29,636 nucleotides of DNA. Origin: a virus. The notes beneath the pieces are model-generated. The model was not told the DNA's origin, ran no database searches, and saw only the letters and a list, made by a program, of their open reading frames with translations. Of the stretch, positions 1 to 28,620 are shown one piece after another. The position numbers and the translations under genes are program-made. The stretch lies in IMG/VR virus record IMGVR_UViG_3300010938_000110, positions 1 through 29,636 of that record. One strand, given 5' to 3'. Each line of letters opens with the position of its first letter. Position 1 is the stretch's first letter.

Positions 1-60
1 AGTTTGACAATTTTTTACTTCTAATGGCAACCTGACATAAGCCCCCGATGCGTTAGCGGA
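1..60 (-). repeat. Partial palindromic cassette-end site, cut by window edge
   Basis: On the minus strand CCGCTAAC (59-52) is the inverted copy of GTTAGCGG at 790-783. It is followed by GCATCGGGGGCTTATG, which looks like the first arm of another palindromic site; the second arm would lie beyond position 1. It closes the unit carrying the zinc-motif gene. Confidence 0.45.
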
Positions 61-82
61 AACCGCAGTGTAGTCCTCCGTA

Positions 83-751
83 TCAAAATGGTAAATCATC
101 AATTGGTTCAAGTTGTTGTGGTTTGACTTTTAAATAATCAGCAAAGACTTTCAACGGGTTTGACTTTTCAAGCATCTTTTTTAGTTTGTGTTTTGCCCTC
201 GTTTGATATGAATTGACATCAGATGTAATCTGCTTGTAAAATTGCTCTCTGTTGTAATTCCATAGCAAGTAATAAAACGACCAAGTTGGACTTAGCTCCA
301 TCGGCTCATGTGTAATTAAACCTTCAATTTGATTGACTATTCTGCCGTTAAATGCTTCGTATTTGAATGTCGGATACCAGTCTTCGTATCCGTCAAATAT
401 TTTTAACTTGTCAAAGTATGACAACTCGCCCATTGGTTCGTGAAATAATGCACCGTTCAAAATGTATCGTTTCAAAACAACTCGCTTAGTTTGATAAACT
501 CCTTTGTCGCAATTCCAACAAGCATTTCCTGTATCGTGGTTTCCTTTCCCATCACATGACCAACATTTCTTTTTTATTGTCTGTAAATCATAATCAGCTT
601 CATGTCCATACTTTTTCAGTATTTCGTTTTTTAGCTTGTAAAAAGATTGTTTGTAATGCCATGCTCCGGCACTATTGCAAACCCTTAAAGCGTATAAATG
701 TGCTTCCGGTATGTCTGCATTTTCTTTGAATGGAATTATTATCTGTTTCAT
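83..751 (-). CDS. Conserved-type hypothetical protein with CxxC...CxxC zinc motif
   Basis: A 222-residue protein of unknown function. Residues about 63-85 hold two CxxC pairs (CWSC and CWNC) separated by a Gly/Asp/Asn-rich loop with a CDGKGN stretch, like one zinc-binding repeat of the DnaJ cysteine-rich domain. A stretch with RYILNG and LFHEPMGEL follows. The rest is basic and aromatic-rich with no membrane segment. The start at 751 lies about 39 bases inside the cassette-like unit, and the gene fills that unit almost completely, as expected for a single-gene cassette. A TAnnTTTG promoter was not found just upstream, so it may rely on read-through. The zinc motif is seen directly; a role in nucleic-acid or protein binding is only a guess. 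Confidence 0.8.
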   Translation of the reverse strand: MKQIIIPFKENADIPEAHLYALRVCNSAGAWHYKQSFYKLKNEILKKYGHEADYDLQTIKKKCWSCDGKGNHDTGNACWNCDKGVYQTKRVVLKRYILNGALFHEPMGELSYFDKLKIFDGYEDWYPTFKYEAFNGRIVNQIEGLITHEPMELSPTWSFYYLLWNYNREQFYKQITSDVNSYQTRAKHKLKKMLEKSNPLKVFADYLKVKPQQLEPIDDLPF

Positions 752-766
752 ATCAAAAATTTGTCG

Positions 767-862
767 TTAATCAATGCGGCATCCGCTAACATGGGCTACA
801 CAAAAGAGGCGGTGAAGTGCTTCTAATGTAGTGCAGTCGTATGTTTTAGTGTCGTTTTTCAT
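767..862 (-). CDS. Possible 31-residue mini-gene spanning a palindromic site
   Basis: A short reading frame starts in the loop of the palindrome (ATG at 862) and runs through its second arm, ending 15 bases before the start codon of the zinc-motif gene. The predicted peptide has three Cys and an LEALHRL stretch. A similar sequence (AACGACAAA) precedes both this ATG and that of the zinc-motif gene. It may be a leader peptide, a degraded gene, or chance coding in a structured site. Because half of it is constrained by the palindrome, protein function is doubtful. Confidence 0.22.
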   Translation of the reverse strand: MKNDTKTYDCTTLEALHRLFCVAHVSGCRID

Positions 863-917
863 AATTAGTTTTGTCGTTTAAATCGCATCCTTCGTGTAGC
901 CCAATCCCGTTAGTAGC
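783..917 (-). repeat. attC-like palindromic site A
   Basis: On the minus strand the site opens with GCTACTAAC (917-909) and closes with GTTAGCGG (790-783). Next to these lie perfect 10-bp arms, TGGGCTACAC at 792-801 and GTGTAGCCCA at 894-903 on plus. Inside them, 8 of 11 positions still pair before a loop of about 60 bases. Total length is 135 bases, within the range of known attC sites. The layout (outer boxes, unpaired spacer, inner stem, variable loop) matches attC architecture, while the core boxes deviate from consensus. Confidence 0.6.
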
Positions 918-944
918 AAATAAAAATCGCCAACGCTCCTGTGT

Positions 945-1205
945 TTATTCTAACTTTAATTTTGTTCCTGTGCATTTAATTTTAACTACTGTCTTTGTAA
1001 AAAAATCTTCTGGCACTTCAAAAAAAGCACATAATCCAAGCATAGTAACTAAGCAAGGAGTTAAATCGCCTGTTTCAAATTTGCTAATAGCCTGTTTTGA
1101 TAATCCTGTTTTATCAGCCAATTCCTGACAAGTTAAACCATAGTAAAACCTTAATAGTTTCAGTCTTTTCGGCAAAAATAATGGTGAAAAATCTTCTGTT
1201 TTCAT
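945..1205 (-). CDS. XRE-family HTH regulator (stand-alone)
   Basis: An 86-residue DNA-binding protein. Residues about 12-68 form a Cro/C1-type helix-turn-helix: RLKLLRFYYGLTCQELADKT, then the recognition helix with SKQAISKFETGD, then a third helix ending LCAFFEVPEDFF. In many Bacteroidota genomes this N-terminal type is fused to an ImmA/IrrE-like metalloprotease domain; here the protein stops shortly after the HTH, so it is either a truncated version or a free regulator. It is the only gene in its unit (1263-909), which is bounded by inverted GTTAGTAGC ends. Its target is unknown. It could regulate its own unit or act as an antitoxin, but no partner lies beside it, and nothing shows it to be the phage repressor. 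Confidence 0.88.
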   Translation of the reverse strand: MKTEDFSPLFLPKRLKLLRFYYGLTCQELADKTGLSKQAISKFETGDLTPCLVTMLGLCAFFEVPEDFFTKTVVKIKCTGTKLKLE

Positions 1206-1254
1206 TTTATATAATTAACATTAAGTTTCAAAAGCTCCCCTTCGGTTTTTATCA

Positions 1255-1337
1255 GCTACTAACATAATCCTTGCGCAAATTGGCAAGTACTGTGTTTGCT
1301 AAAAAGCCAATCAGCGCAAGGCTTCGGCTCGTTATAA
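1255..1337 (-). repeat. attC-like palindromic site B
   Basis: On plus the site runs from GCTACTAAC (1255-1263) to GTTATAA (1331-1337). Perfect arms CCTTGCGC (1269-1276) and GCGCAAGG (1314-1321) enclose a second perfect pair, ATTGGC (1279-1284) and GCCAAT (1306-1311), separated from the outer stem by a two-base internal loop on each side. The unpaired spacers next to the outer boxes differ in length (5 and 9 bases), giving the asymmetry seen in attC sites. It separates the XRE unit from the two-gene unit. Confidence 0.62.
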
Positions 1338-1370
1338 AACATTTATTTCTTGCTTTTTTGGCGAACAGCC
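1331..1370 (+). repeat. Inverted repeat closing the two-gene unit (partner 1895-1934)
   Basis: Plus 1331-1370 and minus 1934-1895 share GTTATAAAA, TTTATTT and GCTTTTTTGGCG in order, with only short differences between them: 28 matching positions over about 34, one gap. One copy overlaps the end of the RHH gene; the other lies in a small reading frame (1884-2012). Coding constraint alone would not give this similarity on opposite strands. Confidence 0.7.
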
Positions 1371-1495
1371 TTAACAGCCGTGCGCTCCAATATCCCTTCT
1401 ACATAGTTTTTGAAATTCGTCCCTGCTTTTATAGCCATGATACTTAAATTCTCTATGGCTTGCTCCGATAGGTTAATCTGTTTTGGTTTTTTCAT
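1343..1495 (-). CDS. Small ribbon-helix-helix-like protein
   Basis: A 50-residue basic protein. A strand-like start (KQINLSEQAIENLSIMA) is followed by KAGTNFKNYVEGILER, the pattern of a CopG/Arc-type ribbon-helix-helix DNA-binding domain. A basic tail follows. Its ATG overlaps the stop of the 93-residue gene upstream by four bases (ATGA), so the two are translationally coupled. The stop codon falls inside the inverted repeat that closes the unit. Four 9-bp tandem repeats precede the pair (1802-1837), and such repeats are typical operators for this fold, so self-regulation is plausible. The fold assignment comes from pattern only. Confidence 0.7.
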   Translation of the reverse strand: MKKPKQINLSEQAIENLSIMAIKAGTNFKNYVEGILERTAVKAVRQKSKK

Positions 1496-1773
1496 TGTTT
1501 TTTTGATTTTAACAACTGTTCATAATCAGCATCGGTCAATTCTCTTTCTTGCGCATCAACAAACTTTGCCTGTGCTTCGGCTAATGTGATATTAGCAATC
1601 ATGTGTTTGTCGTTTGCAGATGAATTAACCAACCTCCAATACAGGTTGCTTCTACCATCGGGATATTGAATGTGCATGAACCGAACCAACTGCATAAAGT
1701 TAGGATTGTTCGGGTGCTTGTGGCTTGTCCAGTCGGTTTGCTTTTCGCCAAATCTGTTTGTGATAGTTTCCAT
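1492..1773 (-). CDS. Unknown 93-residue protein, coupled to RHH protein
   Basis: I do not recognise this soluble, mixed-charge protein. It begins METITNRFGEKQTDW and has an aromatic middle (LVRFMHIQYPDGRSNLYWRL). The C-terminal half looks helical and acidic (ITLAEAQAKFVDAQEREL, then DADYEQLL). There is no signal peptide or membrane segment. It forms a two-gene unit with the downstream RHH-like protein, inside one pair of inverted repeats (1331-1370 and 1895-1934). The combination of an unknown protein of about 90 residues with a small RHH protein and upstream repeats resembles toxin-antitoxin or accessory modules, but no toxin motif is visible, so this remains a guess. Confidence 0.75.
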   Translation of the reverse strand: METITNRFGEKQTDWTSHKHPNNPNFMQLVRFMHIQYPDGRSNLYWRLVNSSANDKHMIANITLAEAQAKFVDAQERELTDADYEQLLKSKKQ

Positions 1774-1801
1774 TGTTTTGAGTTTTGATTTATAATGTAA
1801 A

Positions 1802-1837
1802 TATATACTATATATACGATATACACGCTATATATGT
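1802..1837 (-). promoter_or_regulatory. Four tandem 9-bp repeats, candidate operator
   Basis: On plus the four units are TATATACTA, TATATACGA, TATACACGC and TATATATGT, in exact 9-base register. They end about 29 bases before the start of the 93-residue gene, where a promoter would sit. RHH repressors commonly bind tandem short repeats, and the unit encodes one. Low sequence complexity is the main alternative explanation. Confidence 0.5.
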
Positions 1838-1883
1838 TGCATTATTTTCACTCATATTCGTAACTACTTGATTATCAATACTA

Positions 1884-2012
1884 TTAAATACATAACAGCC
1901 CGCCAAAAAAGCCCAAAATAAACGATTTTATAACATCGGGAGTAATCTTCATTCCATTGCAAAGAGCGTTGTATGTTGGTATAAATGGATAGACTTTAAA
2001 TGTTTGTTCCAT
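1884..2012 (-). CDS. Small 42-residue protein with hydrophobic tail
   Basis: The reading frame starts at ATG 2012, soon after the end of the small RHH-like gene, and ends at 1884. The first half is polar (MEQTFKVYPF, then NALCNGMKITP); the end is hydrophobic and Gly/Phe-rich (FILGFFGGLL) and could insert in a membrane. The second half coincides with the inverted repeat that begins the two-gene cassette unit (1934-1895), so the end of this gene may have been supplied by the inserted unit. Function unknown. The frame is open and well placed but short. Confidence 0.45.
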   Translation of the reverse strand: MEQTFKVYPFIPTYNALCNGMKITPDVIKSFILGFFGGLLCI

Positions 2013-2042
2013 GACGTTTATTTTTTTTGATGGGTGATGTGC

Positions 2043-2240
2043 TTATTCATAGAGAACTTTTTTTAATTTTTTCCCACGCTCTTTCAAAAACAAATACGTT
2101 TCAGATTTACATTCATCAATTCCGTTGTTCGCATCTATGATTGATTGTTCAACATAAATTGTAACTGCTTGCTTTGGGTCAGCAGCAGGCTTCCTGCCTG
2201 CACCTTGCCTTGCTCCTCCGTGTTGAAATTTCTTTGCCAT
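2043..2240 (-). CDS. Small phage protein with GARQGAGRKP motif, RHH-like
   Basis: A 65-residue basic protein. It opens with HGGARQGAGRKP, an N-terminal signature seen in many small phage-encoded RHH-type DNA-binding proteins. VTIYVEQSIIDANNG then fits a strand-helix pattern, and the C terminus is Lys-rich. The start lies two bases after the stop of the upstream 237-residue gene, so both are probably made from the promoter at 3000-3030. It is likely a DNA-binding accessory or regulatory protein; the exact target is unknown. Confidence 0.75.
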   Translation of the reverse strand: MAKKFQHGGARQGAGRKPAADPKQAVTIYVEQSIIDANNGIDECKSETYLFLKERGKKLKKVLYE

Positions 2241-2241
2241 T

Positions 2242-2955
2242 TCATTTAGTTAATTCAATTAGTGATTGTTTGTGCCTCTCCAAACAAGCCGAGTAGCTTG
2301 CAACTCGTTCATTCGTAAAGAGTGTAACTGCGTGTTCAATGTCAATCGGTGCAGCTTTGTAGTATCCGGCAGTTCTCTTACTGTTGCGACCTTTTAAATG
2401 GAGGTCAACGACAAGTGTCACTTGTTGTTTATCGCAGTAGTTCTTAATTGTAAGTGCGTAGCCAGTGATTGTTTCAGGAATTGATTTACCAAATTCTTTG
2501 CGAACAACAACATTGTTGAGCGCATTTGTAATCTGCTCTCTAACCTTCGGCTCTTGCCATTGGTAAGTAGCCATCTCTTCAAACTCTTCAACAATTTTAC
2601 GAGCATTTTCAACTTTTTTATCGTTCAATTCTTTTGCCTTTTCAGACGTCATAAATTCTGTTGCAAAAGCAATTCCTTCCTCTTTACAAAGGGCAACCAA
2701 TGTGTTAATTGTAATCACTTCAAGGTTGATTCCCGGAACATTGTGACCGTCTGCAATACAGTTGAATGTTTTACCTTTGAAAGTTGCAATTCCTTTCAAA
2801 ATAATTCTCAAATGGCAAGTGTCAAATGATTTGTAAGATGCTCCGATTGGCAGGTTAGGGTAGTTGTCCCAAGTACCCCAATTAAATTGACCTTCTAAAG
2901 CATACCAATTAAGGATGTCTGTTACATTTCTGATTGTTAATTCTACTTTTTTCAT
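2242..2955 (-). CDS. Unknown early phage protein, 237 residues
   Basis: I do not recognise this protein. ATG 2955 was chosen because the frame upstream of it contains the promoter (3000-3030), so a longer product from 3033 could not be made from that promoter. It is soluble, with an aromatic N-terminal part (DILNWYALEGQFNWGTW), a central acidic and Lys-rich helical part (about residues 105-130) and a basic segment with LHLKGRNSKRTAGYY near the end. There is no nucleotide-binding motif. It is the first gene of the last early transcription unit, followed by the small GAGRKP protein. Position suggests an early or host-takeover role, which is inference. Confidence 0.8.
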   Translation of the reverse strand: MKKVELTIRNVTDILNWYALEGQFNWGTWDNYPNLPIGASYKSFDTCHLRIILKGIATFKGKTFNCIADGHNVPGINLEVITINTLVALCKEEGIAFATEFMTSEKAKELNDKKVENARKIVEEFEEMATYQWQEPKVREQITNALNNVVVRKEFGKSIPETITGYALTIKNYCDKQQVTLVVDLHLKGRNSKRTAGYYKAAPIDIEHAVTLFTNERVASYSACLERHKQSLIELTK

Positions 2956-2973
2956 TTTTTTTGTTTTTAAATC

Positions 2974-2991
2974 AAACACTTCATTGTGTTT
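2974..2991 (-). promoter_or_regulatory. Inverted repeat at the transcription start region
   Basis: AAACAC (2974-2979) and GTGTTT (2986-2991) are perfect inverted arms around six bases. They lie where the transcript from the 3000-3030 promoter should begin, so this could be an operator or a 5' hairpin in the mRNA. Confidence 0.35.
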
Positions 2992-2999
2992 GATGGGTA

Positions 3000-3030
3000 C
3001 AAAGATAGGCATTAATTTTGAATTAACAAA
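3000..3030 (-). promoter_or_regulatory. Bacteroidota-type promoter, near-perfect
   Basis: On the minus strand TTTG (3030-3027) is followed after exactly 19 bases by TATCTTTG (3007-3000). This matches the TTTG-N19-TAnnTTTG consensus of the Bacteroidota primary sigma factor. The predicted start is near 2993, leaving a leader of about 38 bases before ATG 2955. Between 3031 and 3175 I see no gene, only A/T-rich sequence. Confidence 0.75.
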
Positions 3031-3175
3031 CATTTTTTCATTTTTTTTTCAAAATAATTGTAATTAATTGATTTTCAATATGAATAATTTTTGCCCACCC
3101 CACAAAAAAATAAAAAATTACCGAACTTCGTGAATAGCATCAAAATTAACTATTGCTAAAGTACACATACTGATT

Positions 3176-3616
3176 CTAACATACTCTAATTATCATTGTT
3201 TCAAAATCAATTTCTATAAATTGCGGTCTGCACATCCCATCTTTATCTATGTTAAATTCACTTTTAATAATCCAACTCCTTCCGTTCCATTCTTCGCAGC
3301 TATTAATTTCAATCAGTCCGGTCACCGTTTTGTTTCTGCATTCCATGCCATCAACAGCAACCAATTTCTCTATTTCAAATTCACTTAAATCATCGGTGTA
3401 AACCTCCCATTCTATTGATGCAACTACTTTTGTAACGTGAACCGAAATTGATTTCATACCCCAACTCCTTGATTCAGGCTCTAATAACCAATCTATATAG
3501 CAAGTTTGTTTATATGTATAAATGTCCACATCCGGAACACCGAAACATTCACTCAAACCGTAAACAGTGCAATCATCAGTAGTGGTTTGGTAATCGTAAC
3601 CCAATATAGTTGCCAT
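3176..3616 (-). CDS. Unknown early phage protein, 146 residues
   Basis: An acidic, beta-rich looking protein rich in Cys, Trp, Ile and Val, with no recognised motif. It begins MATILGYDYQTTTDDCTVYG and ends FETMIIRVC. Start ATG 3616 is preferred over the GTG one codon earlier because it overlaps the stop of the 41-residue gene (TGATG), a translational-coupling junction. There is no membrane segment or signal peptide. It lies at the end of the early operon that begins with the nuclease and replication genes. Function unknown. Confidence 0.75.
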   Translation of the reverse strand: MATILGYDYQTTTDDCTVYGLSECFGVPDVDIYTYKQTCYIDWLLEPESRSWGMKSISVHVTKVVASIEWEVYTDDLSEFEIEKLVAVDGMECRNKTVTGLIEINSCEEWNGRSWIIKSEFNIDKDGMCRPQFIEIDFETMIIRVC

Positions 3617-3741
3617 CACTTTTTTGTTTTATTTTTTTTTTGGCCCACCAAACAGCTATTGCATAATCCTGAATTAACAACTATTAATCTAATGCAACCG
3701 CATTTAACACATTCGCCTATGTGGAATTCAAGTGAACTCAT
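3616..3741 (-). CDS. Small zinc-ribbon-like protein, 41 residues
   Basis: The peptide holds two Cys pairs, CVKC at residues 11-14 and CNSC at 27-30, separated by a hydrophobic hairpin-like stretch. This is the pattern of a minimal zinc ribbon, and a Lys/Asn/Gln-rich tail follows. The start overlaps the end of the 220-residue gene by 14 bases, and the stop overlaps the next start by one base (TGATG), so the gene is embedded in a tightly packed operon. It is likely a small DNA- or protein-binding accessory factor; the partner is unknown. Confidence 0.65.
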   Translation of the reverse strand: MSSLEFHIGECVKCGCIRLIVVNSGLCNSCLVGQKKNKTKK

Positions 3742-4390
3742 ATTTTAATTTTAAATATTTTTTAATCCGCTCCTTTCTACACAACGTTTTAAAATATGCT
3801 TCATTTTGAATAAGCTGATTATATTTCTTTTTATCTTTAATTTCAGCTTGTAGTTTTAATTTAAAACACTCAATAAAGATTCTCTTTTCTTCATTAGTAT
3901 CTTCTATTTCACCTATCTTTTCAAGGTGTAAAAACAATTTATCCCATGCCCATATAAATGGCATTTTTTTACTTTCTGTTATCTGTTTTATAAATAAATC
4001 ATACGACTGTTCATCAGTGAGTGTTTCCCTTCTTTTTTCTTCAATTTGTACAAATGGTTTAATCTCTTTTGCTTTTTCATATTTATGCCTTTTATACGAA
4101 GCTATAATGCGACCAAATAGCTCCGCATTAAATACCTGATTGTATAAGTCTGTTCTTACATCTAATTGCCCTGTAATTGCTAATGAGAATGCTTCTTTTA
4201 TTTCATCGTATTTAAGTTTAGAATGATATGTATTAATAAAATCAATCAATACTTCTTTTGCAAATCCTGTTGGTATTTTGTTCTCTGGTAATCCCAATAA
4301 CGTAAACACATACATCATGGTTGCCATTAGCTCAGGATTGTGCAAATTCTTTGAGTTTATTTTCGATTCTTTGTTGGATTGTAAGTCCAT
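3728..4390 (-). CDS. Putative phage replication accessory protein
   Basis: A 220-residue Lys- and Glu-rich helical protein. The N-terminal part, with ELMATMMYVFTLLGLPENKI and then FAKEVLIDFINTYHSKLKYDEIKEAF, resembles proteins encoded just after DnaD-like replication initiators in Bacteroidota phages. No Walker A motif is present, so it is not a DnaC-type loader ATPase by motif. It overlaps the upstream putative initiator by 59 bases in another frame, implying coupled expression. A helicase-loading or primosome-linked role is inferred from position only; a later start at an internal Met is possible. Confidence 0.6.
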   Translation of the reverse strand: MDLQSNKESKINSKNLHNPELMATMMYVFTLLGLPENKIPTGFAKEVLIDFINTYHSKLKYDEIKEAFSLAITGQLDVRTDLYNQVFNAELFGRIIASYKRHKYEKAKEIKPFVQIEEKRRETLTDEQSYDLFIKQITESKKMPFIWAWDKLFLHLEKIGEIEDTNEEKRIFIECFKLKLQAEIKDKKKYNQLIQNEAYFKTLCRKERIKKYLKLKYEFT

Positions 4391-5054
4391 TGCTTTGTTG
4401 TTTTAATTGCTCATTATATTCTTTTATTAATTTCGGCCTATTGTCCTTCAAGTCTCTCAACATCCAATTCTTGGCTGTTGCTATCCAATCTTTCTTCTTA
4501 TTGCCCTGAGCTGACCAATTCTTGACAATCTCATAATAGTATTGCGTGTCAAAACAACTGTATTTTTCATCTGCCCGTATTTTTTTTTCAAATTTTTCAA
4601 ATTCAAAAAATTCGCAATCTTTAAATAAAATGTTTCCCTCACCTTTTACCCTTTTCCCCTTACCCTTACCCTTACCCCTTACCCTAATAATATGCTTATC
4701 ATTAATTAATGATTGCTCAATCATTGTGTAAAGATTGTATTTTATCAACTCTTTTCTTACCGATTTAATCATCGGCTTATTTGATAATAAGCCACTTGGG
4801 TACTGAATCTTCAAAAAACTGGGTATAAAATAAAATTTTCCGCAATCAATTACTTTTTCGCCAAAAATTTTCATAAAATGTTCCTCGTCAAGATTTGTAT
4901 TGCAGAAATAGTTTAGGTGACGAAACCCCTTCTGCCATACGCCTGCGATAGAACAGTTATCAATTAAATATTGCCATACGATTCTATAATCATTGGTTAA
5001 TGATAAATACCAATCGTCTTTCCATTTGTTCGTTTCAGTGAATCGTAAAGACAT
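4332..5054 (-). CDS. Putative phage replication initiator-like protein
   Basis: A 240-residue protein. The N-terminal half (about 1-110) contains KWKDDWYLSLTNDYRIVWQY and DNCSIAGVWQKGF, a pattern common in phage winged-helix replication proteins upstream of a DnaD-like module. A basic low-complexity linker (GKGKGKGKR, about residues 127-136) follows. The C-terminal half has YYEIVKNWSAQG and KKDWIATAKNWMLRDL, like DnaD-domain C-terminal helices. ATG 5054 was chosen over a GTG at 5072, which lies inside a hairpin. The linker is encoded by GGGTAA-type repeats that may serve as the origin, as iterons within initiator genes do in several phages. Function is inferred. Confidence 0.65.
   Translation of the reverse strand: MSLRFTETNKWKDDWYLSLTNDYRIVWQYLIDNCSIAGVWQKGFRHLNYFCNTNLDEEHFMKIFGEKVIDCGKFYFIPSFLKIQYPSGLLSNKPMIKSVRKELIKYNLYTMIEQSLINDKHIIRVRGKGKGKGKRVKGEGNILFKDCEFFEFEKFEKKIRADEKYSCFDTQYYYEIVKNWSAQGNKKKDWIATAKNWMLRDLKDNRPKLIKEYNEQLKQQSNGLTIQQRIENKLKEFAQS
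4636..4686 (-). repeat. G-rich GGGTAA repeat tract, candidate origin iterons
   Basis: On the minus strand the tract has at least six G-runs in units GGGTAA, GGGGTAA, GGGTAA, GGGTAA, GGGGAAAA and GGGTAAAA. It is in frame with the initiator-like gene and encodes the GKGKGK linker. Four or more closely spaced G-triplets could form a G-quadruplex on that strand. Coding of a basic linker is the simplest explanation. Confidence 0.5.
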
Positions 5055-8059: not shown

Positions 8060-8523
8060 GCGGATATTTCAAAGTGCATCCAATCATAATTCTTTTCTTT
8101 GCCCAAAGAAATAAATCCATGTTTATAAAATATATCAATCATAGGTTTATATTCTTCTCTTGCGAATTTAGCTGTTAGCCCTGTTGCTTTTAAAGGATTG
8201 TTCTCCGGGTCTAAATCTATAGCTATCCCCCAAGAATGTCTGCTCCAATCTGTGCCACCTCGCATCTTTCTGAAGCTAAAACAACCCCCATAAATATCTA
8301 TGCCAAGTGCAACAAGTTTTTCATAACCATAATAAGATAGTAATTCGTTAAAAACAGCAATAAAAGCAACACTTACAGCCTTATGACAGCTAATTTTAAT
8401 AACCCTTTTAGATTTATCCCAGGCTAATCTCATCGGGTAAGGCAATGTTATTGTTGTTAAATACCCTTCACCTGTTTCATTAGGCTCACCAAATCGTGAT
8501 ATTATTTCTTGAGTTGTTAACAT
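8056..8523 (-). CDS. Endolysin, M15-family peptidase
   Basis: A 155-residue zinc peptidase of the M15 (VanY / L-Ala-D-Glu peptidase) group that cuts peptide cross-links of peptidoglycan. Zinc ligands are visible as His96 and Asp103 in RHSWGIAIDLDPENN and His150 in DWMHFE, with Asp147 as the likely catalytic acid partner. There is no signal peptide, so it should need the holin to reach the wall. It follows the XhlA-like gene by 33 bases and overlaps the spanin-like gene by four. Confidence 0.92.
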   Translation of the reverse strand: MLTTQEIISRFGEPNETGEGYLTTITLPYPMRLAWDKSKRVIKISCHKAVSVAFIAVFNELLSYYGYEKLVALGIDIYGGCFSFRKMRGGTDWSRHSWGIAIDLDPENNPLKATGLTAKFAREEYKPMIDIFYKHGFISLGKEKNYDWMHFEISA

Positions 8524-8556
8524 AATTCTAAAATTTTTAAATCATCCTCTTTTGTA

Positions 8557-8814
8557 TCAAAAATGTAAATGACTTTTAATCCATGCCCAGAAGCCAATAT
8601 TTCCTCCGGTCAGAAAACCAGAAACAATCCACTTAAATTTTTTGTCCCGTTCAATGTATTTGTCATGTGAATTTACTTTTGAAGCAATACCTTTTACGCC
8701 AGCTTTTTCATTCCCGAAGACTGCAAAGTGCATCTCTGCCAAAACCTTTGATTGTTCATGTTGTTCGTCTCTTAATTCAATCAACAACTTTTCTATCTTT
8801 TCAAGTTCTGACAT
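8557..8814 (-). CDS. XhlA-like lysis membrane protein
   Basis: An 85-residue protein. The N-terminal coiled-coil-like helix (about 1-28) and a soluble middle are followed by one membrane segment near the C terminus, after the basic IERDKKFK (about residues 63-80, WIVSGFLTGGNIGFWAW). This is the layout of haemolysin XhlA-type proteins, which help phage and PBSX lysis at the membrane. It is the first gene of the lysis cassette, only four bases downstream of a promoter box, so its mRNA could be almost leaderless. Confidence 0.72.
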   Translation of the reverse strand: MSELEKIEKLLIELRDEQHEQSKVLAEMHFAVFGNEKAGVKGIASKVNSHDKYIERDKKFKWIVSGFLTGGNIGFWAWIKSHLHF

Positions 8815-8818
8815 ATTG

Positions 8819-8826
8819 CAAATATA
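8819..8826 (-). promoter_or_regulatory. Promoter box of lysis cassette
   Basis: TATATTTG (8826-8819) lies only four bases from the ATG at 8814. Since starts are usually about seven bases after the box, the transcript would have little or no leader. It could give the lysis genes independent late expression. Confidence 0.45.
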
Positions 8827-8829
8827 ACA

Positions 8830-8997
8830 TTAATCTGTTAATGTATATCCCTTTAATAATGGCGTTGTTTTCTCGTCAATAAATAAATATCTTTCCATTT
8901 CTATACCATCGTGATAATAAATTGCCACTTTTTTATTCATAGTAAAAAATGTTTCTGAATGAATGATAAATATGTCTATAATTTTGCAAGTTCTCAT
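8830..8997 (-). CDS. Small unknown protein between fibre and lysis genes
   Basis: A 55-residue protein. ATG 8997 was chosen because it overlaps the fibre-gene stop in an ATGA junction; an internal Met would give a 36-residue form starting MNKKVAIYYHDGIEMERYL. The second half looks strand-rich, while the first contains a short hydrophobic stretch. No family recognised. Confidence 0.5.
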   Translation of the reverse strand: MRTCKIIDIFIIHSETFFTMNKKVAIYYHDGIEMERYLFIDEKTTPLLKGYTLTD

Positions 8998-9812
8998 TCG
9001 ATATAAATTGAAGCGTAACACGAAATAGAAGTAGGATTAGTAGCCCATGTTGGCGTAATCCATTTGATTTCAAAAAAATCACCCCCTGACACAGCTATAT
9101 TAAGTGCTGTGTTGTTAAAATAAGTTCGTGAAGCATTGTTTACAATAGCAGAACTAATTATTGTATCAAAAGAATTATTAAGCCGAAAATAAACCGTTGA
9201 CGTTTCAGAAGAACCTGAAACTTGAATGAAATTTAGATAGACAGCTTTCACATTGCCTGATTTTGGTATGTAGATTCGTGAATTAGTCGCTATTGTGGTT
9301 AACACTCGGTCATACGCAAAACCGAAGTAATAAGTTGTCTCATCAAGAGGAGAACTTGATGAAGCGTATGCTTCCATTACATAGCTATTGCTTCCTGCTA
9401 TTGTAGTACCTATTTGGAATCCCGCCCCATCATAGGTTAAATCATAAACTGTTCCCGGATTAATTGCCCCAGCTAATAAAGCATACCCATAACTGTCTGT
9501 TAATGGAACAGCACCTATAGAGTTTAAATTGATTGTACTTGCTCCTGTGTTTGTGTTATTAAACACAACACGTAATCGTAGTCCTTTAAAATAACCAATA
9601 ATAAACGGTGACGCATAAGTAACTATGTATGTATCTGTTCCTGATACTGGGCTGAAATAAGTCGGAAAGTCATAATACATCAACTCATTCCATCTGTTTA
9701 CCCCATCCCCAATCTTCATTAGACCTGTATCTATTTCATAGCCCTGTTGCCCTTGTTTTAGAAGGATGTTTTGTGATGTCCAATATGCTGATGTGTGCTT
9801 TAAAGGTGTCAT
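8994..9812 (-). CDS. Tail fibre or receptor-binding protein
   Basis: A 272-residue protein. The first 50 residues hold the common phage fibre attachment pattern: SAYWTSQNILLKQGQQGYEI, then DTGLMKIGDGVNRWNELMYY. The remainder is Ser/Thr/Asn/Gly-rich beta sequence (GAVPLTDSYGYALL and NTNTGASTINLNS) of the sort that trimerises and binds a receptor at the C-terminal end. ATG 9812 overlaps the stop of the 368-residue gene (ATGA), so the longer frame from 9842 is unlikely. It is the last structural gene before the lysis cassette, a usual place for host-recognition proteins. Confidence 0.78.
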   Translation of the reverse strand: MTPLKHTSAYWTSQNILLKQGQQGYEIDTGLMKIGDGVNRWNELMYYDFPTYFSPVSGTDTYIVTYASPFIIGYFKGLRLRVVFNNTNTGASTINLNSIGAVPLTDSYGYALLAGAINPGTVYDLTYDGAGFQIGTTIAGSNSYVMEAYASSSSPLDETTYYFGFAYDRVLTTIATNSRIYIPKSGNVKAVYLNFIQVSGSSETSTVYFRLNNSFDTIISSAIVNNASRTYFNNTALNIAVSGGDFFEIKWITPTWATNPTSISCYASIYIE

Positions 9813-10915
9813 CCGATAGCCCCCTCTTTTAAATCGCAACAAATAGATTTAATTACTGACTGCTGTCCTTCTTCAAAAATAACTGTGACTTTAGATAACC
9901 TTCTACGTTGTTTGTCTAAATATTCCGGCTCATAAGAACCACCTTTAGTAATAGGCTTCCTTTTAATTTCATAATCAGAATTATTGTTATTATAATCAGA
10001 AACCAAAAGTTTATCGCTCATCATTCCGTAAATTTTAAATCTATCATGCAAATATTTTTGATAATAACCTGAACGAAATTCATATTTCTGCAATGCTTCA
10101 TCTTTTATTCTTTCTTGCAAGCCATTTTGATATTCATGTTTTATTTCTAAATATTCAGGAGTAGTTTCATATCCAAATAAACCATTAAGACGAACCGAAT
10201 CGTACCAATAAAAACCACATATATCAAAAATTTTTCCTTGCGTATATTTATCTCCAATCTTGCCTGTTACCCATGCTTCAAATTTTACTGTGCCATGCGC
10301 TCTTAAACAATCCCATGCAAGTAATCTAAATTTTTCGCTCACTAAACAACCGGTTAATTCTTTCATCATGGTTTCAACTTTCAATCTATAAATACCATGA
10401 CCAAATTTGTTATAAATGATTCCCCAATCTAATATGACACCTGAATAAGTAGTGTGGTTTGGTATGCTTGCAAGCGGGTAATATAAACCATAACTATTAT
10501 CCGTTATTGTCGCAATATCATTCCAAGTTTCATTTGTACATTTTTGTAGTTTAAACGATATTACACCATAACTCGTGTTTGGGCCGTAAATGGCGAAGTC
10601 GACAAGAAAAGAGCTAAAATCATTTTCATAAAGATATGTGTTTGCCGTTGTAGAGTTAACATCCCATAATGCACTTCCCAAATATTCTATTGATGTTTCT
10701 TTACCAAACACTATATTTTCAATACAACATTCATCTATTGTTCTACATTCTATTGCATCGCAATCGCAAAGCGGTATAAATCCAATAACCTGTATTGGAT
10801 TAAGTTTTATTTTAGGCACACCACCATGACCACCGCTGCCATCGTCTCCTGCGTGAGTATCTCCTTTGCCTGTGGCTGGGGCAAGTATCGGTGTGTATGG
10901 TACGTCTATCGGCAT
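9809..10915 (-). CDS. Tail-tip or minor structural protein, 368 residues
   Basis: I cannot place this in a named family. It begins with a Pro/Gly/Asp-rich flexible stretch (GKGDTHAGDDGSGGHGG). A Cys cluster follows at about residues 50-69 (CDCDAIEC, then CRTIDECC), which may bind metal or form disulphides. The middle is strand-rich, and the C-terminal third is basic and Tyr-rich (KITKGGSYEPEYLDKQRRRL type). Its place between the 918-residue structural protein and the fibre gene suggests a part of the tail tip or a fibre-attachment protein. Confidence 0.65.
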   Translation of the reverse strand: MPIDVPYTPILAPATGKGDTHAGDDGSGGHGGVPKIKLNPIQVIGFIPLCDCDAIECRTIDECCIENIVFGKETSIEYLGSALWDVNSTTANTYLYENDFSSFLVDFAIYGPNTSYGVISFKLQKCTNETWNDIATITDNSYGLYYPLASIPNHTTYSGVILDWGIIYNKFGHGIYRLKVETMMKELTGCLVSEKFRLLAWDCLRAHGTVKFEAWVTGKIGDKYTQGKIFDICGFYWYDSVRLNGLFGYETTPEYLEIKHEYQNGLQERIKDEALQKYEFRSGYYQKYLHDRFKIYGMMSDKLLVSDYNNNNSDYEIKRKPITKGGSYEPEYLDKQRRRLSKVTVIFEEGQQSVIKSICCDLKEGAIG

Positions 10916-10930
10916 ATTGTGTATGTCTAT

Positions 10931-13687
10931 TTATGTATATCTATATCCCAATCGTGGATAAATTAAAATTTTTTCAACATCAAATTTACTGCTGTCAAAA
11001 TAACCTGAAACAACAGCTTTATTTGCAGCATTATAAACATCTATAGTTACATTTCCATTTGCCAAAGAATAATCTGCTATAGGGTCAGGAGTTGTAGGCT
11101 TCCATGGCGAATCCGATTCAGAAGGTATTTCTGATGAGGCAAATCTTCTTGAAAATATTCCGCCACCATGTTGAAAATCTGCAAACATTATCCCATAAAA
11201 TTTTGTATATGAAGCCGGGAAAGTAGTTATCGTTCCAAAACAAGTAAAAGTCGCTTTTATCAATGTCGGATTATCTTTATCAATAGCCTTTATCTCTGTT
11301 AACCCATCTTCAGTGTAAAATTTAACATCAACTGTAAAATCAGGAGCAAGTTCAGGCGTACCACCGCCCTTAATTACTCGCATATCTGTTTGTACTTGAT
11401 ATTCATTTTCAAAACCATCATACCCTTCAATGAAACAAGTAAATGTAAATTTCAAATTCCAACCATTTACAGATGAATAATTCGACCATTGATGCGTTAC
11501 ATTTTCTATGTCTTTAAAAATATCATAAGCAGCACCCTCTGCTAATTGAATGACCTCTCTCCAATATTCATAACGAAGTACTAATCCATACTGCAATTCA
11601 AATCCTTTTTTGCTGCCGTTATCTAAAGTATAATCTCTGAATAATTTAACCCTATTTCTTGGGTCATCATCGTATGTTATAAATCCTCTTGTCTCATTAA
11701 TATCTATGGTTTGAATGCCAAGTAATTTTCTAAACCTACTTGTGTCCATGTCTTTTTTCTCCAACACAAAATCTTGATAGCCACTTTTTTCGGCTTTAAC
11801 CTGAACTACAATTTTGTTAATTGTTGGCCTTATGTCTGTTGATTCTATCGCACTAAATGGGGTTACAGAAACAATTGGCCCCAATAATATAACAGTTGGC
11901 ACTATGCCTTCATAAATGCCCCCAGGATTATTAGTAACAACTTCCAAAATCCAAGTCATTGATGCCCCTATATAAGTTAATTCACAGGTAAATTCGGGAA
12001 AATACATATCAAGAAAATTTTGAAAATCCGATTTTGACAAACTTACATTTGATGAATCGAAAGTAATCGAAGGTGGTATTGCAGGAATACCATTTATTTG
12101 ATACGTTAATGAAAATAATGATGAGCCTGTAAAAGTCGCTATTGATTTGCATTTGCCATAAAAACCTGTTTCGACTAAAAAAGGTATTCTAATATAAAAA
12201 GGGTCGCCTTCAAATCCAGCAATCTCGCCTACGTTGTTTGTGTTTTCGTAAGGATATGGATAAACCATAACCCCATTACTTGTTAACTCAAATAAATCTG
12301 CATTTGTTTTATCATAATCTGCATTTTCAAAATCACAAAGTACAGCAACCCTATCTACTCCTCTTGTAGTTGTAATACTTTTTCGTTGAGTGGTGACAAA
12401 AAAACAATAAAACCTATTGTCATCTGATTTGCTCTTTAGTAAATTTTTTATAAAGTTAGAATGATTAATAGTAAAAGTTAACGTAGCATTATAAACATCT
12501 ACAAATGCGATGGAATAGTTAAATATGCTTTGATAGTCACCTGCGCTTTCTCCATCAATAGCCGATGCTCCTATAGAATTAAATGCCCTGTCAAATAAAT
12601 AATTTTTCTTTAATACGTTATTTGTGTTAATGTAATCTTCTTCGTTTAGCGGACAATAAAAATAATGCAATACTAAATCAGTAGGCATAGCACCTGTTGT
12701 AAAGAATCCAGATTTAGAATGAAGTTTTATTGTTACATCAACTGACTTATTTATGTCCAAGCGTTCTAATGTATTTGAGCCTGAAACATAATCAATAGAA
12801 ACCACTTCATATTCTGGTTTTTTACCGTTCGGGTCTCTGTCAAACCAAACGGTCAATCCATCTAAACCATTTGTTTCTATTGTGTGCGCAACTTCGGAAG
12901 TATCAAAATCATATTTAGCATCTAAACGTGCAACGAATTTTAACGCTTCTTCGTCTTGAAAATATTCCGGTGGTATTTTATTAGCAAATAAAAATAATTG
13001 GTCTCGTAAGTAAAGAGGGGTAATAAAAAATGTATGATTTAGGATGAATTTCTGTTTATAGTCAGTTATTCCATCACCAATAATACTAAGTTGTGAAACA
13101 TTTACCTCCGCTGTAATTTCATCAAATATTTCGTTCGTCACCCAGCCCCAAGATGTAGTTCCTATTATTCCCTTTTTTAAGGCAACAGTATTGCTTGCAT
13201 CCAAATCTTTAAATAAAAATTTTTGAGTTGTACCCCTGTCTGTCTTTGATTTGAATGTGTTTACTTCACTATTCTTTATTAAATTGTAAAAGTAGTCTAA
13301 AGCAACAACAGGAGTAGTTCCAAACAATGAACAGTCCTCATCGGTTTCATCTACAAGTGCTTCTACTGTTGTAATCTTTCTGCCGTCTGATGATATTTCA
13401 GCTATTGTATAAGAACCGTTATTTGAAATAGTATCTGTAACATCAAATGTATCACCCACTTTGAATCCATCGGAAATAAAATCAGAGCGGTCTAATGGGT
13501 TTACGTTTTCGATTGTCTTTGTTGCAGACGTAAATTGAAGCCTTTTATTTTCAGAACTCCATTTTATGTAAAAATTAATAACACACGTAATTTTATCGCC
13601 TATACAACCATAAAGATAATCTACACCACCGCCACTTACACCAGTAAATTCGTCATAAAACTTTTTTGATGTTACAAAAATGCTCAT
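10931..13687 (-). CDS. Large tail-tip or baseplate structural protein
   Basis: A 918-residue protein, the largest in the window after which fibre-type genes follow. It is strand-rich, Thr/Asn/Asp-rich, with no enzyme motif and no membrane segments, as expected of a baseplate or tail-tip component. The N-terminal part contains a repeated-looking domain about field values (KTIENVNPLDRSDFISDGF, then GDTFDVTDTISNNGSYTIAE). The C-terminal part has Ig-like beta patterns near VTIDVYNAANKAVVSGYFD. The start overlaps the stop of the 84-residue gene (ATGA). Exact role unknown. Confidence 0.68.
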   Translation of the reverse strand: MSIFVTSKKFYDEFTGVSGGGVDYLYGCIGDKITCVINFYIKWSSENKRLQFTSATKTIENVNPLDRSDFISDGFKVGDTFDVTDTISNNGSYTIAEISSDGRKITTVEALVDETDEDCSLFGTTPVVALDYFYNLIKNSEVNTFKSKTDRGTTQKFLFKDLDASNTVALKKGIIGTTSWGWVTNEIFDEITAEVNVSQLSIIGDGITDYKQKFILNHTFFITPLYLRDQLFLFANKIPPEYFQDEEALKFVARLDAKYDFDTSEVAHTIETNGLDGLTVWFDRDPNGKKPEYEVVSIDYVSGSNTLERLDINKSVDVTIKLHSKSGFFTTGAMPTDLVLHYFYCPLNEEDYINTNNVLKKNYLFDRAFNSIGASAIDGESAGDYQSIFNYSIAFVDVYNATLTFTINHSNFIKNLLKSKSDDNRFYCFFVTTQRKSITTTRGVDRVAVLCDFENADYDKTNADLFELTSNGVMVYPYPYENTNNVGEIAGFEGDPFYIRIPFLVETGFYGKCKSIATFTGSSLFSLTYQINGIPAIPPSITFDSSNVSLSKSDFQNFLDMYFPEFTCELTYIGASMTWILEVVTNNPGGIYEGIVPTVILLGPIVSVTPFSAIESTDIRPTINKIVVQVKAEKSGYQDFVLEKKDMDTSRFRKLLGIQTIDINETRGFITYDDDPRNRVKLFRDYTLDNGSKKGFELQYGLVLRYEYWREVIQLAEGAAYDIFKDIENVTHQWSNYSSVNGWNLKFTFTCFIEGYDGFENEYQVQTDMRVIKGGGTPELAPDFTVDVKFYTEDGLTEIKAIDKDNPTLIKATFTCFGTITTFPASYTKFYGIMFADFQHGGGIFSRRFASSEIPSESDSPWKPTTPDPIADYSLANGNVTIDVYNAANKAVVSGYFDSSKFDVEKILIYPRLGYRYT

Positions 13688-13938
13688 TTATCAGATGTTA
13701 TTTTATTTGTGTCAAGATAAAAATTTTCCGCTTCATTCTTATTTTCAAAATTCAAAATTACTGCCCCGATAGGCGTAATTGACATATAAGCTCTTTTGTT
13801 ATTTATCATAATTAATTTCTTTTGTTCAGGCTCAAACGTAGGCAGGTTGCTTAAAGTCTTTTGCGCCTTTTCTATTATTGGCTCTAATCGCTTTTTAAAA
13901 TTCTCAAGAACTTGCATAGGGTCTTTATCTTGCTCCAT
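13684..13938 (-). CDS. Small tail-region protein, 84 residues
   Basis: A small mixed-charge protein starting MEQDKDPMQVLENFKKRLEP. A helical first half is followed by a strand-rich part with KKLIMINNKRAYMSITPIGA. It overlaps the 638-residue gene by 14 bases and the 918-residue gene by four. It may be a chaperone or minor structural part of the tail tip; no family recognised. Confidence 0.65.
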   Translation of the reverse strand: MEQDKDPMQVLENFKKRLEPIIEKAQKTLSNLPTFEPEQKKLIMINNKRAYMSITPIGAVILNFENKNEAENFYLDTNKITSDK

Positions 13939-25069: not shown

Positions 25070-25283
25070 TTAATTTAATTTTTTCCAGATTATTTTTACT
25101 TTGTGAAAAATTTTATTACCGAATTCATCTATGCCAAAACTAAATCTATCTTGCCCATTTATATATGCATTTAGATGTGCTTTTTCAAATGCTTTTTCTT
25201 CTTCGGTAATAAAATTTTCTGTTTTACCACCAAATAATCTTGCCCATTTTTTAGGTTTTTTTTTTATTTAAAATCCCAAACAT
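25070..25283 (-). CDS. Small gene interrupted at an A10 run (frameshift)
   Basis: ATG 25283 overlaps the portal stop (TAATG), a convincing coupled start. The frame MFGILNKKK runs into ten A (25265-25256) and stops almost at once. If one A is skipped, it continues for 60 codons to TAA at 25072-25070 as KPKKWARLFGG, then FITEEEKAFEKAHLNAYING and FSFGIDEFGNKIFHKVKIIW, giving a 70-residue product. The second part has no start codon of its own. A sequencing error in the homopolymer, a real mutation, or slippage at the A run are all possible. The AYINGQDRFSFG pattern resembles small proteins found in this position in related phages. Confidence 0.6.
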
Positions 25284-26716
25284 TAATCTATTGCTTCTTT
25301 TATTACACTTGTTATCATTGAAGATGCTATAGTAGCATCATAGCCGTATTGGTTTATTAGCACATTAATAGCAGTTTGTCTATCCATATTTCCATTGCTT
25401 ACAGCTTCATTTAAATCAATTATGCCTTGTGTTCCGCCTACTGTTGACCGTAGTTCTATTTGGGCATTTCTAATTTTATCTTCAGTACTTTGAACATCTT
25501 CTTGAGCTTTAAACTCATAACCCATTTCTATTGCAAATTGTTCTTTAGTTATGATTCCATCGGTAAACAACATGTTCAGCCGTTCTGTTTTTATTTTTTT
25601 TGTTTCTTCTTCCTGTTTTTTATCTTCTTGCATAACAGCAAGCCAACTATAATCAGCAAACAATTCTAATCCATCATTTTGTAATCCGAACTGATTTGTA
25701 AATGTGCGCATTAGCAAATCTGCTTCAGGCTGTATAGTGTTTTGATATGTTTGCTTTAATGCTTCTTTTTGATTTTCAAAAGTTGCGCCTTTTGTGCTTG
25801 GGAAAATATCTCTTGACAAACCATAAGCAGAACATAATGCTTGAAAGTCATCTTCAATTTCCTCAAACAACATCAAATCTTTTGTCGGATAGCCCATAGG
25901 TGTCCATGTTACATTTGCTGTAGTTATAATCCATCGCATTTGGTTATCGAAAATTCCGTATTTATTTTCCCTGTAACTTTTTTCTATTCTTTTTCTTTCC
26001 TCTTCTCCTAATGGTATTCCACCATCAGCATCTTTACTTTGATTTGAAATAATGCCTAAAGCCCCTTTCTCATTTATTAAAATGTTTCTCGTCTTTATTG
26101 CCCCTTGCATATTAGAAATGTTTAAACAAAGAGATTCTAATTTTGACTTTGCGACAAAATAATTTTCACTTACTCCTTGCGATACATGTATAATATCATC
26201 CACATCAAAAATTTTTACATAGTCTGCCTTTTCAAATCTATATTCTTTTATTATCCCTTCAAGTTGATATTGTTCAAATAGTTTTCCAGACGGTATAACT
26301 TGCATACCATCTGGTGGCAAATTCCAAAGCACCTTTGTTTGGTTAATTCCTTTAAGTTTATATATAAAAGCATTTGCATATATATCTTTATAAATAGAAA
26401 TCTGTGAAATAAAATCCTCTTGATTTTGTAAAGGATTTGGTTGTTTAAATAATTCTAAAATTTTATGTTCAGATATTATTTCACCTGTTTTTTTATTGCG
26501 CAACTTTATATCCATGTTCTTAAACATATCTGCCTTTTTATCAATAACAGCACGAACATAAGGCGAACTACAATAGACAGCCATTAAATCTGACATATCT
26601 ATTAGAATGGGCATTTGCCCATTTAAAAAAAAATTTGAACGTAAAGCGTAAAATGGTGGATTCTCATTTAGGAATACTCTGAAAAATCTCGAAAACCAAT
26701 TACCAAATCTATTCAT
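25283..26716 (-). CDS. Portal protein (HK97 family type)
   Basis: A 477-residue protein that forms the DNA entry ring at one capsid vertex. Family patterns are SPYVRAVIDKKADMFKNMDI at about 45-64, ILELFKQPNPLQ at about 80-91, the central NLPPDGMQVIPSG, and CSAYGLSRDIFPSTKGATF at about 295-315. The C terminus is helical and charged. ATG 26716 was chosen because the frame start at 26734 falls inside the promoter box (26732-26739). It follows the terminase genes and heads the portal-protease operon. Confidence 0.92.
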   Translation of the reverse strand: MNRFGNWFSRFFRVFLNENPPFYALRSNFFLNGQMPILIDMSDLMAVYCSSPYVRAVIDKKADMFKNMDIKLRNKKTGEIISEHKILELFKQPNPLQNQEDFISQISIYKDIYANAFIYKLKGINQTKVLWNLPPDGMQVIPSGKLFEQYQLEGIIKEYRFEKADYVKIFDVDDIIHVSQGVSENYFVAKSKLESLCLNISNMQGAIKTRNILINEKGALGIISNQSKDADGGIPLGEEERKRIEKSYRENKYGIFDNQMRWIITTANVTWTPMGYPTKDLMLFEEIEDDFQALCSAYGLSRDIFPSTKGATFENQKEALKQTYQNTIQPEADLLMRTFTNQFGLQNDGLELFADYSWLAVMQEDKKQEEETKKIKTERLNMLFTDGIITKEQFAIEMGYEFKAQEDVQSTEDKIRNAQIELRSTVGGTQGIIDLNEAVSNGNMDRQTAINVLINQYGYDATIASSMITSVIKEAID

Positions 26717-26731
26717 CAAAATTATTTTATG

Positions 26732-26739
26732 CAAATATA
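26732..26739 (-). promoter_or_regulatory. Promoter box of portal operon
   Basis: TATATTTG (26739-26732) lies 15 bases before ATG 26716. It overlaps the end of the preceding intergenic space and gives a short leader. Confidence 0.62.
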
Positions 26740-26748
26740 TAAAATAAA

Positions 26749-26952
26749 CTAAAATAACTTAAACTTATTAACAACTGCTGCTATAAGTCTTGAGGTGTAT
26801 TTGTTTTCGCAAGAACTACATATATTTGATTTACATAGGTTGCAGTAATAAACCTTTTTTTTATTCGCATCTTTTCTTAAGATAAAGCACACATCGCACT
26901 TGGCTTCTATCCAAACTTTCTTATTACCATTATTGAAGTTACAACAACTCAT
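26749..26952 (-). CDS. Small zinc-binding protein between terminase and portal
   Basis: A 67-residue Cys-rich protein. CDVC (about 19-22), CNLC (37-40) and CSSC (45-48) are three CxxC pairs with basic residues between them, a pattern for two zinc sites as in treble-clef, B-box-like or ribbon folds. An additional CC lies near the start. The start overlaps the terminase stop by four bases (ATGA). It may help terminase or another nucleic-acid process; the role is unknown. Confidence 0.72.
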   Translation of the reverse strand: MSCCNFNNGNKKVWIEAKCDVCFILRKDANKKKVYYCNLCKSNICSSCENKYTSRLIAAVVNKFKLF

Positions 26953-28211: not shown

Positions 28212-28620
28212 CAGTATTTGTCTGCACAAAAGTTATAACAGGAATAGATTTGCCATCTGTTGAAGCGTGTTGTATTTGTTGTGTTGCCTTACCATGACTT
28301 CTATCAAGCATACGCTCTAATGTCTCGTAAGCATCTTTGCTTTCTATCAACCGATTTGCAATTATATGAACTAAAATAGGCTGATTTTCATCTTTTGAAA
28401 GATTTTGCAATTCCGCTAATGGTAAATTAAACATAGCTTGAAACGCTTGCCGTACTTGTTCAGGGCTAACTTCATCATAGCCATTTTTTTTAAGCGTTAA
28501 GATTAATTCTTTTACAAGTTTTGGTTTTCTGCCATTCTTGTTTTTAGGTTGGTGTTCAGAACTCCATTGATATTTCTTGCCTTCCTTTGCTAAATTTGCA
28601 TTCCGTTCTTCAATCGTCAT
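28198..28620 (-). CDS. Putative terminase small subunit
   Basis: A 140-residue protein. The start contains YQWSSEHQPKNKNGRKPKLV, a basic GRPK-like N-terminal pattern, and a helical core and LERMLDRSHGKATQQIQ follow (about residues 104-120), the last typical of small phage proteins upstream of the large terminase subunit. ATG 28620 was chosen since the longer frame begins at a TTG inside the promoter box. Position next to terL is the main support for the DNA-recognition role. Confidence 0.75.
   Translation of the reverse strand: MTIEERNANLAKEGKKYQWSSEHQPKNKNGRKPKLVKELILTLKKNGYDEVSPEQVRQAFQAMFNLPLAELQNLSKDENQPILVHIIANRLIESKDAYETLERMLDRSHGKATQQIQHASTDGKSIPVITFVQTNTDEIK

Follow-up and report, generated by a model that had tools for sequence, protein, structure and literature searches.

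A phage-borne gene cassette array with attC-like hairpin sites, probably part of an integron-like system of Bacteroidota

Sedentary chromosomal integrons comprise an integrase (IntI), an attI site and an array of cassettes with attC sites. An insertion in IntI is regarded as essential for integron function (PMC8138268, citing MacDonald 2006), and the established role of XerA is in resolving chromosome dimers (PMC8138268). Phages, Polaribacter phage P12002L among them, have already been reported to carry clusters of attC sites that lack an integrase (CALINs; Qi et al. 2023, PMC9892861), so the phage location of a cassette array is not new by itself. In that study, one of two tested P12002L sites (attC2) recombined with attI1 in an IntI1 assay.

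We analysed an entire IMG/VR virus record of 29,636 bases (the window), which is linear and possibly incomplete. It encodes a terminase large subunit (26949-28229) and a portal protein (25283-26734), both on the minus strand; the relatives of the terminase are mostly from phages of Flavobacteriia. At the left end of the window (1-1934), with genes on the minus strand, lies what is probably an array of cassettes with attC-like hairpin sites, belonging to an integron-like system of Bacteroidota, carried by the phage and mobilised in trans.

The array has three head-to-tail units on the minus strand, each opening with GTTA, closing with TAAC and having complementary ends. Unit C (1934-1331, 604 nt) has its 5' GTTA arm at 1901-1934 and its 3' TAAC arm at 1331-1363, and its translated ORFs are of 93 aa (1492-1773) and 50 aa (1343-1495). 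Unit B (1263-909, 355 nt; arms 1243-1263 and 909-929) carries the gene for an HTH_3 regulator (945-1205; HTH_3 E = 9e-7), and unit A (790-52, 739 nt; arms 772-790 and 52-70) carries a gene whose 222-aa translation has two CxxCxGxG-like zinc motifs (83-751). Folding the regions between units, as had been proposed, gave a hairpin upstream of unit B (site B, 1330-1264; z = -4.73, none of 200 shuffles as stable) and another upstream of unit A (site A, 908-791, or 919-780 with flanks; z = -3.27, 1 of 200 shuffles as stable), both on the minus strand. Upstream of 1934, before unit C, we found no hairpin. After unit A's TAAC, a further site begins (1-51) and is truncated where the contig ends; this stretch does not fold alone, which is expected of half a site but is uninformative too. 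Thus the large palindromes of the original prediction are present as two complete hairpins, not three, the third being cut at base 1.

The own ends of the window units pair in a common pattern: 9 contiguous pairs, 2-3 unpaired positions, and then further pairs. The arms of unit A are 84% complementary over 19 nt (16/20 paired) and those of unit B 86% over 21 nt (17/20 paired); unit C's pair at 20/30 positions without gaps, or at 28/33 by eye with one gap. Among the 4,860 GTTR/YAAC pairs on the minus strand, no more than 1-2 match the arms of A or B over 18 positions, and no more than 3 equal unit C over 28 positions; at 18 positions unit C is unremarkable (36 pairs are equally good). The rarity of these arms, together with the two strong folds, bears out the prediction of three GTTA-led, hairpin-separated units with complementary ends. 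Complementarity had been put at 19, 21 and 34-36 positions; the long paired ends are there, but the stretches contain mismatches. The cores (GTTAGCG, GTTAGTA and GTTATAA) have only GTTA/TAAC in common and do not fit the 7-bp GTTRRRY/RYYYAAC boxes, a deviation that was correctly foreseen. The window thus resembles integron arrays in having tandem units of one to a few genes, with GTT/AAC-cored hairpin sites at their boundaries, and in the complementary ends of each unit. A complete integron (IntI with its specific insertion, plus attI) was not found in the record. Elsewhere in the 29.6 kb, a detector that requires a hairpin and paired arms found nothing more, and an Rfam search of positions 1-5000 gave chance-level matches only.

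Searches with exact DNA patterns for a single type of site yielded few matches, so covariance models were needed. Model R1, built from eight sites from phage and viral contigs, has three pairs in its alignment that are nearly always G.U, with the G on the gene-sense 5' side. R1 found no window site, but had matches in 18 of 296 Bacteroidota genomes (a sample from the phylum of a Prevotellaceae MAG). For model R2, built from 53 sites with the window excluded, the best window match was site A on the minus strand, the one predicted (28.6 bits, E = 8.8e-5; the next match had 16.3 bits), with E-values being rough because calibration was short. Site B was recognised by neither R1 nor R2, and the models did not find unit C; site B and unit C are identified by architecture alone. 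R2 sites are present in at least 63 of the 296 genomes (ten candidates were scored per genome), in host arrays of up to about 15 sites. R2 had no match in the control phages with canonical integron parts (Vibrio, Shewanella, TJE1).

When the hairpin and paired-arm detector was run on 80 terminase-relative contigs (679 kb), it found only one other array, in the related phage L002. This array has the same build as the window's, with two units called and a third seen by eye, and lies directly upstream of the small terminase gene. One of the L002 sites matches R2 with E = 1e-10, but it was in the training set of R2. (The same phage encodes, at L002:5576-6199, a protein with many repeats of the short motif NARVGD/NASVGD.) The same unit build is found in Polaribacter phages P12002L and P12002S and in the IMG/VR contigs L081, L091 and L092. 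We found no relative of unit A's 222-aa protein in the viral contigs, genome contigs or phage records, and none of the gene adjoining the array in the viral contigs or phage records, so by protein comparison no close relative of the window's array came to light.

Many of the host arrays adjoin a tyrosine recombinase. Among the family-model (A6) matches listed, which include weaker Xer-like matches, 26 of 100 have a listed site within 25 kb, as a raw count, and 42 of 100 are in site-bearing genomes. The linked recombinases are of two types. Type I proteins (about 350-410 aa) have an N-terminal extension of about 80-140 aa and are encoded upstream of the array in the same direction, while type II proteins (about 280-335 aa) are encoded divergently from it. 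With both types, the sites are oriented with GTT towards the recombinase, and the genes point away from it. A guess that type II host arrays have the phage gene direction was disproved by the actual ORFs.

The array-linked recombinases lack the IntI-specific insertion: they have 75-76 residues between the KGxKDR and LRHSxATH motifs, as compared to 116-118 in IntI and 83-86 in Xer. In a phylogenetic tree, IntI (100/100) and Xer (100/100) are apart from the branch that holds all of the array-linked recombinases, whose support (94/95) is just under the 95/80 threshold. For the host proteins tested, the best NCBIfam match is the XerA-type family NF040815 (named site-specific tyrosine recombinase/integron integrase), at 216-237 bits around its cut-off of 220. 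Unlike XerA, type I proteins have the extra N-terminal region, and both types adjoin hairpin arrays. In the literature, with preprints and most subscription papers outside our scope, we found no account of such recombinases with such arrays.

The original prediction proposed a search for more sites and for IntI. More sites were found, but the recombinases linked to them are XerA-like. IntI exceeds its family cut-off in 3 of 18 site-bearing Bacteroidota genomes (G057:C18:74583, G146:C5:529082 and G155:C1:74584), and these genomes have the site family elsewhere. Within about 10 kb of these three genes, or up to the contig end, R2 found no site and unfiltered R1 gave only chance-level scores. The window record, which may be incomplete, encodes no PF00589 recombinase. 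Among the best 10 matches in phage records (33-35% identity), none is close to type II. The tyrosine recombinase near sites in Cellulophaga phage phi18:3 is an ordinary phage integrase.

The sister phages P12002L and P12002S show which hairpin belongs to which gene. Their flanks are over 99.8% identical, and between the flanks they have different cassettes that differ by whole units. At junction J4, P12002S carries an extra hairpin, GTTA, methyltransferase gene and TAAC relative to P12002L, inserted after TTGCAGGTAAC, with TAACGT on both sides. At J2 and J5, the upstream unit is common to both phages and the sequences diverge directly after AAC; at J3, the flank is common from AAC onward. J1 switches inside a hairpin stem, which fits homologous recombination better. 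Because four of the five junctions break at the AAC side (TAAC|G), the hairpin travels with the downstream gene. In P12002S and L091, the same 46-nt hairpin, almost unchanged, lies ahead of different genes (L096:6642-6688; L091:5650-5696).

We had first assumed the canonical polarity, with each hairpin belonging to the upstream gene, and the original prediction likewise took the hairpin as the closing site of the preceding unit. Junctions J2-J5 and the comparison with host arrays overturned this: the breakpoints and the reversed gene direction indicate assignment of the hairpin to the downstream unit. In phage arrays, the gene strand is that of the site in 36 cases and the opposite one in 1, and the canonical order of a gene followed by its own attC was not found. 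Host genes run mostly against the site strand, both in the first set of host loci (35 opposite, 7 same) and in the recombinase-linked arrays of types I and II (132 opposite, 15 same). The difference between phage and host has a Fisher p of 5e-25, which overstates the case because sites within one array are not independent.

One of the same-direction host loci, L145, is a prophage: it has DnaB and methyltransferase genes, and the same recombinase gene is found in an IMG/VR virus record. L145 also has three 426-aa ORFs (8181-9461, 10350-11630 and 12648-13928) near hairpin sites. For the one tested, matches to RVT_1 and GIIM identify a reverse transcriptase of the group II intron type, and the other two are taken as copies by their size. 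Their proximity to hairpin sites fits introns of the kind that target attC sites. In L164 and L167, 1.88-kb repeats end at sites.

Phage units also differ from host units in how far their ends pair. We compared the two ends of each unit with each other and with the ends of other units, using a permutation test. Among 26 phage units, a few of which are probably mis-paired and some of which are homologous between P12002L, P12002S and L091, own ends score higher both at positions 5-9 (6.9 versus 3.8 for other units, p = 0.0005) and at positions 10-36 (14.8 versus 8.5, p = 0.0005). Among 13 host units, two of which come from loci whose genes run in the phage direction or whose kind is uncertain, own ends score higher at positions 5-9 (5.7 versus 3.9, p = 0.002), but there is no second block at positions 10-36 (7.7 versus 7.5, p = 0.37). 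Within this sample of 26 phage and 13 host units, the second block of complementarity is confined to the phage units. Own-end complementarity in Vibrio and Shewanella cassettes is about 9-12, outside the permutation test and read by eye because neither the contiguous-stem detector nor the strict GTTRRRY detector recognised the canonical control arrays. Hence complementarity beyond 7 bp, which had been put forward as unusual, is shared with those cassettes and, as the first block, with host cassettes; what is unusual is the second block. This block and the reversed gene direction of the phages are features new to us.

The type II recombinase regions of L155 and L157 (genomes G041 and G103) are 98.5% identical up to ...TTATGTTG, where the shared region stops, directly after TATGTTG, and different cassettes follow. 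In G201, the cassette adjoining the type I recombinase (L144:10101-11200, G201:C1) has ends of 75 and 72 nt that are 93% and 90% identical to those of the P12002L Mom cassette. Its gene has the phage direction but is not Mom; motifs resembling those of methyltransferases are visible by eye in its protein, which has no match in Pfam. The G201 array seems to have acquired a cassette of the phage type.

The system resembles sedentary chromosomal integrons in its tandem cassettes, GTT/AAC cores, hairpin sites and cassette-specific end pairing, and in having a recombinase at one end with adjoining divergence at a GTT junction. It differs in its linked recombinase, which is without the IntI insertion and lies outside the clade of IntI proteins, in the unequal spacers beside the cores, and in the reversed gene of phage cassettes. 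The window's array resembles the P12002L CALIN (PMC9892861), with the same site family, arm pattern, gene direction and methyltransferase cargo. The main text of that study does not describe the complementarity of the arms and links no recombinase of the XerA-like clade; also, the P12002L attC directions are divergent in that account, whereas we find one polarity for the sites of its array. The suggestion of a divergent Bacteroidota attC-type family is upheld by the model match of site A, its relatives in phages and chromosomes, the arrays that adjoin recombinases, and the gain and loss of units between sister phages.

We propose that a cassette is one hairpin plus the downstream GTTA...gene...TAAC stretch. 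Excision would join the cassette's own ends, probably as a circle, so that the two arms would pair and the hairpin stem would lengthen. Cleavage by the recombinase would fall on the AAC side (G^TT as read on the strand opposite to the gene-sense one), and the unit would be inserted at another TAAC|G. Joining their own arms gives sites A and B a gain of about 10 kcal/mol each, which does not decide the polarity because it holds whichever neighbour the hairpin is assigned to. By its position, the XerA-like recombinase is the candidate enzyme for these sites. As there is no recombinase on the phage contig, the likeliest source of the activity is an enzyme that the host encodes and that acts in trans, and because IntI1 can use a P12002L site (PMC9892861), classical integrases may act on some sites. 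The window's own array presumably moves too; we did not see movement of its units because we found no close relative of the window phage.

The strongest alternative is that these are ordinary integron cassettes spread by a host IntI, as in a classical CALIN, and that the XerA-like recombinases are bystanders or serve another purpose. The IntI1 assay on P12002L_attC2 and the three genomes with IntI are consistent with this, but no convincing site lies beside those IntI genes. In many genomes, XerA-like recombinases flank the arrays in an orientation that does not vary, and in two arrays the same recombinase and junction are followed by different cassettes, so we consider this alternative unlikely. 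It is still less probable that the array is a relic on which no site-specific recombinase acts any longer, and that homologous recombination between similar hairpins of phages infecting the same cell is all that reshuffles it. Junction J1 and the near-identical hairpins ahead of different genes would be explained, but the four other junctions are at the AAC side, beside dissimilar hairpins. Also, most units retain pairing between their own ends, a sign that the joined form may be under selection.

Two further explanations seem very improbable. If the hairpins were transcription terminators or mRNA structures, with the paired ends an RNA feature, then one would expect the gene-sense strand to fold better, as the phage gene-sense strand does in 50 of 53 sites, and the conserved G.T pairs would make sense. 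However, the genes of host arrays lie on the strand opposite to the better-folding one, which would therefore be absent from host mRNA, and neither unit-wise indels nor the linkage to recombinases would be explained. Equally improbable are small transposons with cassette-specific inverted ends, moved by a DDE or HUH transposase of unknown kind. Every unit does have inverted ends, and the 93-aa protein of unit C has a weak DDE-like profile match (E = 0.03, noise level). But the ends of neighbouring units differ, unit starts abut a hairpin of a shared family, and the one clean insertion has no target duplication beyond the TAACGT core. We noticed no linkage to a transposase, short of a systematic search.

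Returning to the integron-like reading of the array, a broader and more tentative version, plausible but somewhat short of probable, is that a XerA-lineage recombinase that lacks the IntI insertion, and that evolved apart from IntI, drives an integron-like system in Bacteroidota. Phages would hold a separate pool of cassettes, with the gene reversed relative to the site and with ends that pair further, and the two pools would exchange cassettes. Arrays beside recombinases that lack the insertion make it testable whether recombination of hairpin sites arose more than once, or needs less than was thought. Tools that require IntI would label such arrays as integrase-less.

The cargo of the window's array comprises the HTH regulator, the 222-aa zinc-motif protein and short proteins of unassigned kind. 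Across the phage cassettes, the cargo includes N6/N4, Dam-like and Mom modification genes, a C5 methyltransferase, DUF3850/ASCH proteins and small HTH proteins. Several of the reversed phage cassettes encode DNA methyltransferases, which suggests that phages maintain anti-restriction genes in a pool of their own and trade them by this route.

Some short ORFs overlap the sites. In the window, a 31-aa ORF (767-862, minus strand) begins in the loop of hairpin A and crosses the GTTA boundary, and similar loop-start ORFs are present in P12002S. More generally, the loop of a phage site often contains an ORF start, and the ORF then crosses the 3' stem and the GTT boundary (L096:15132-15317, L082:31124-31310 and others). 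A 42-aa ORF (MEQTFKVYPF...; window 1884-2012, minus strand) spans the start of unit C.
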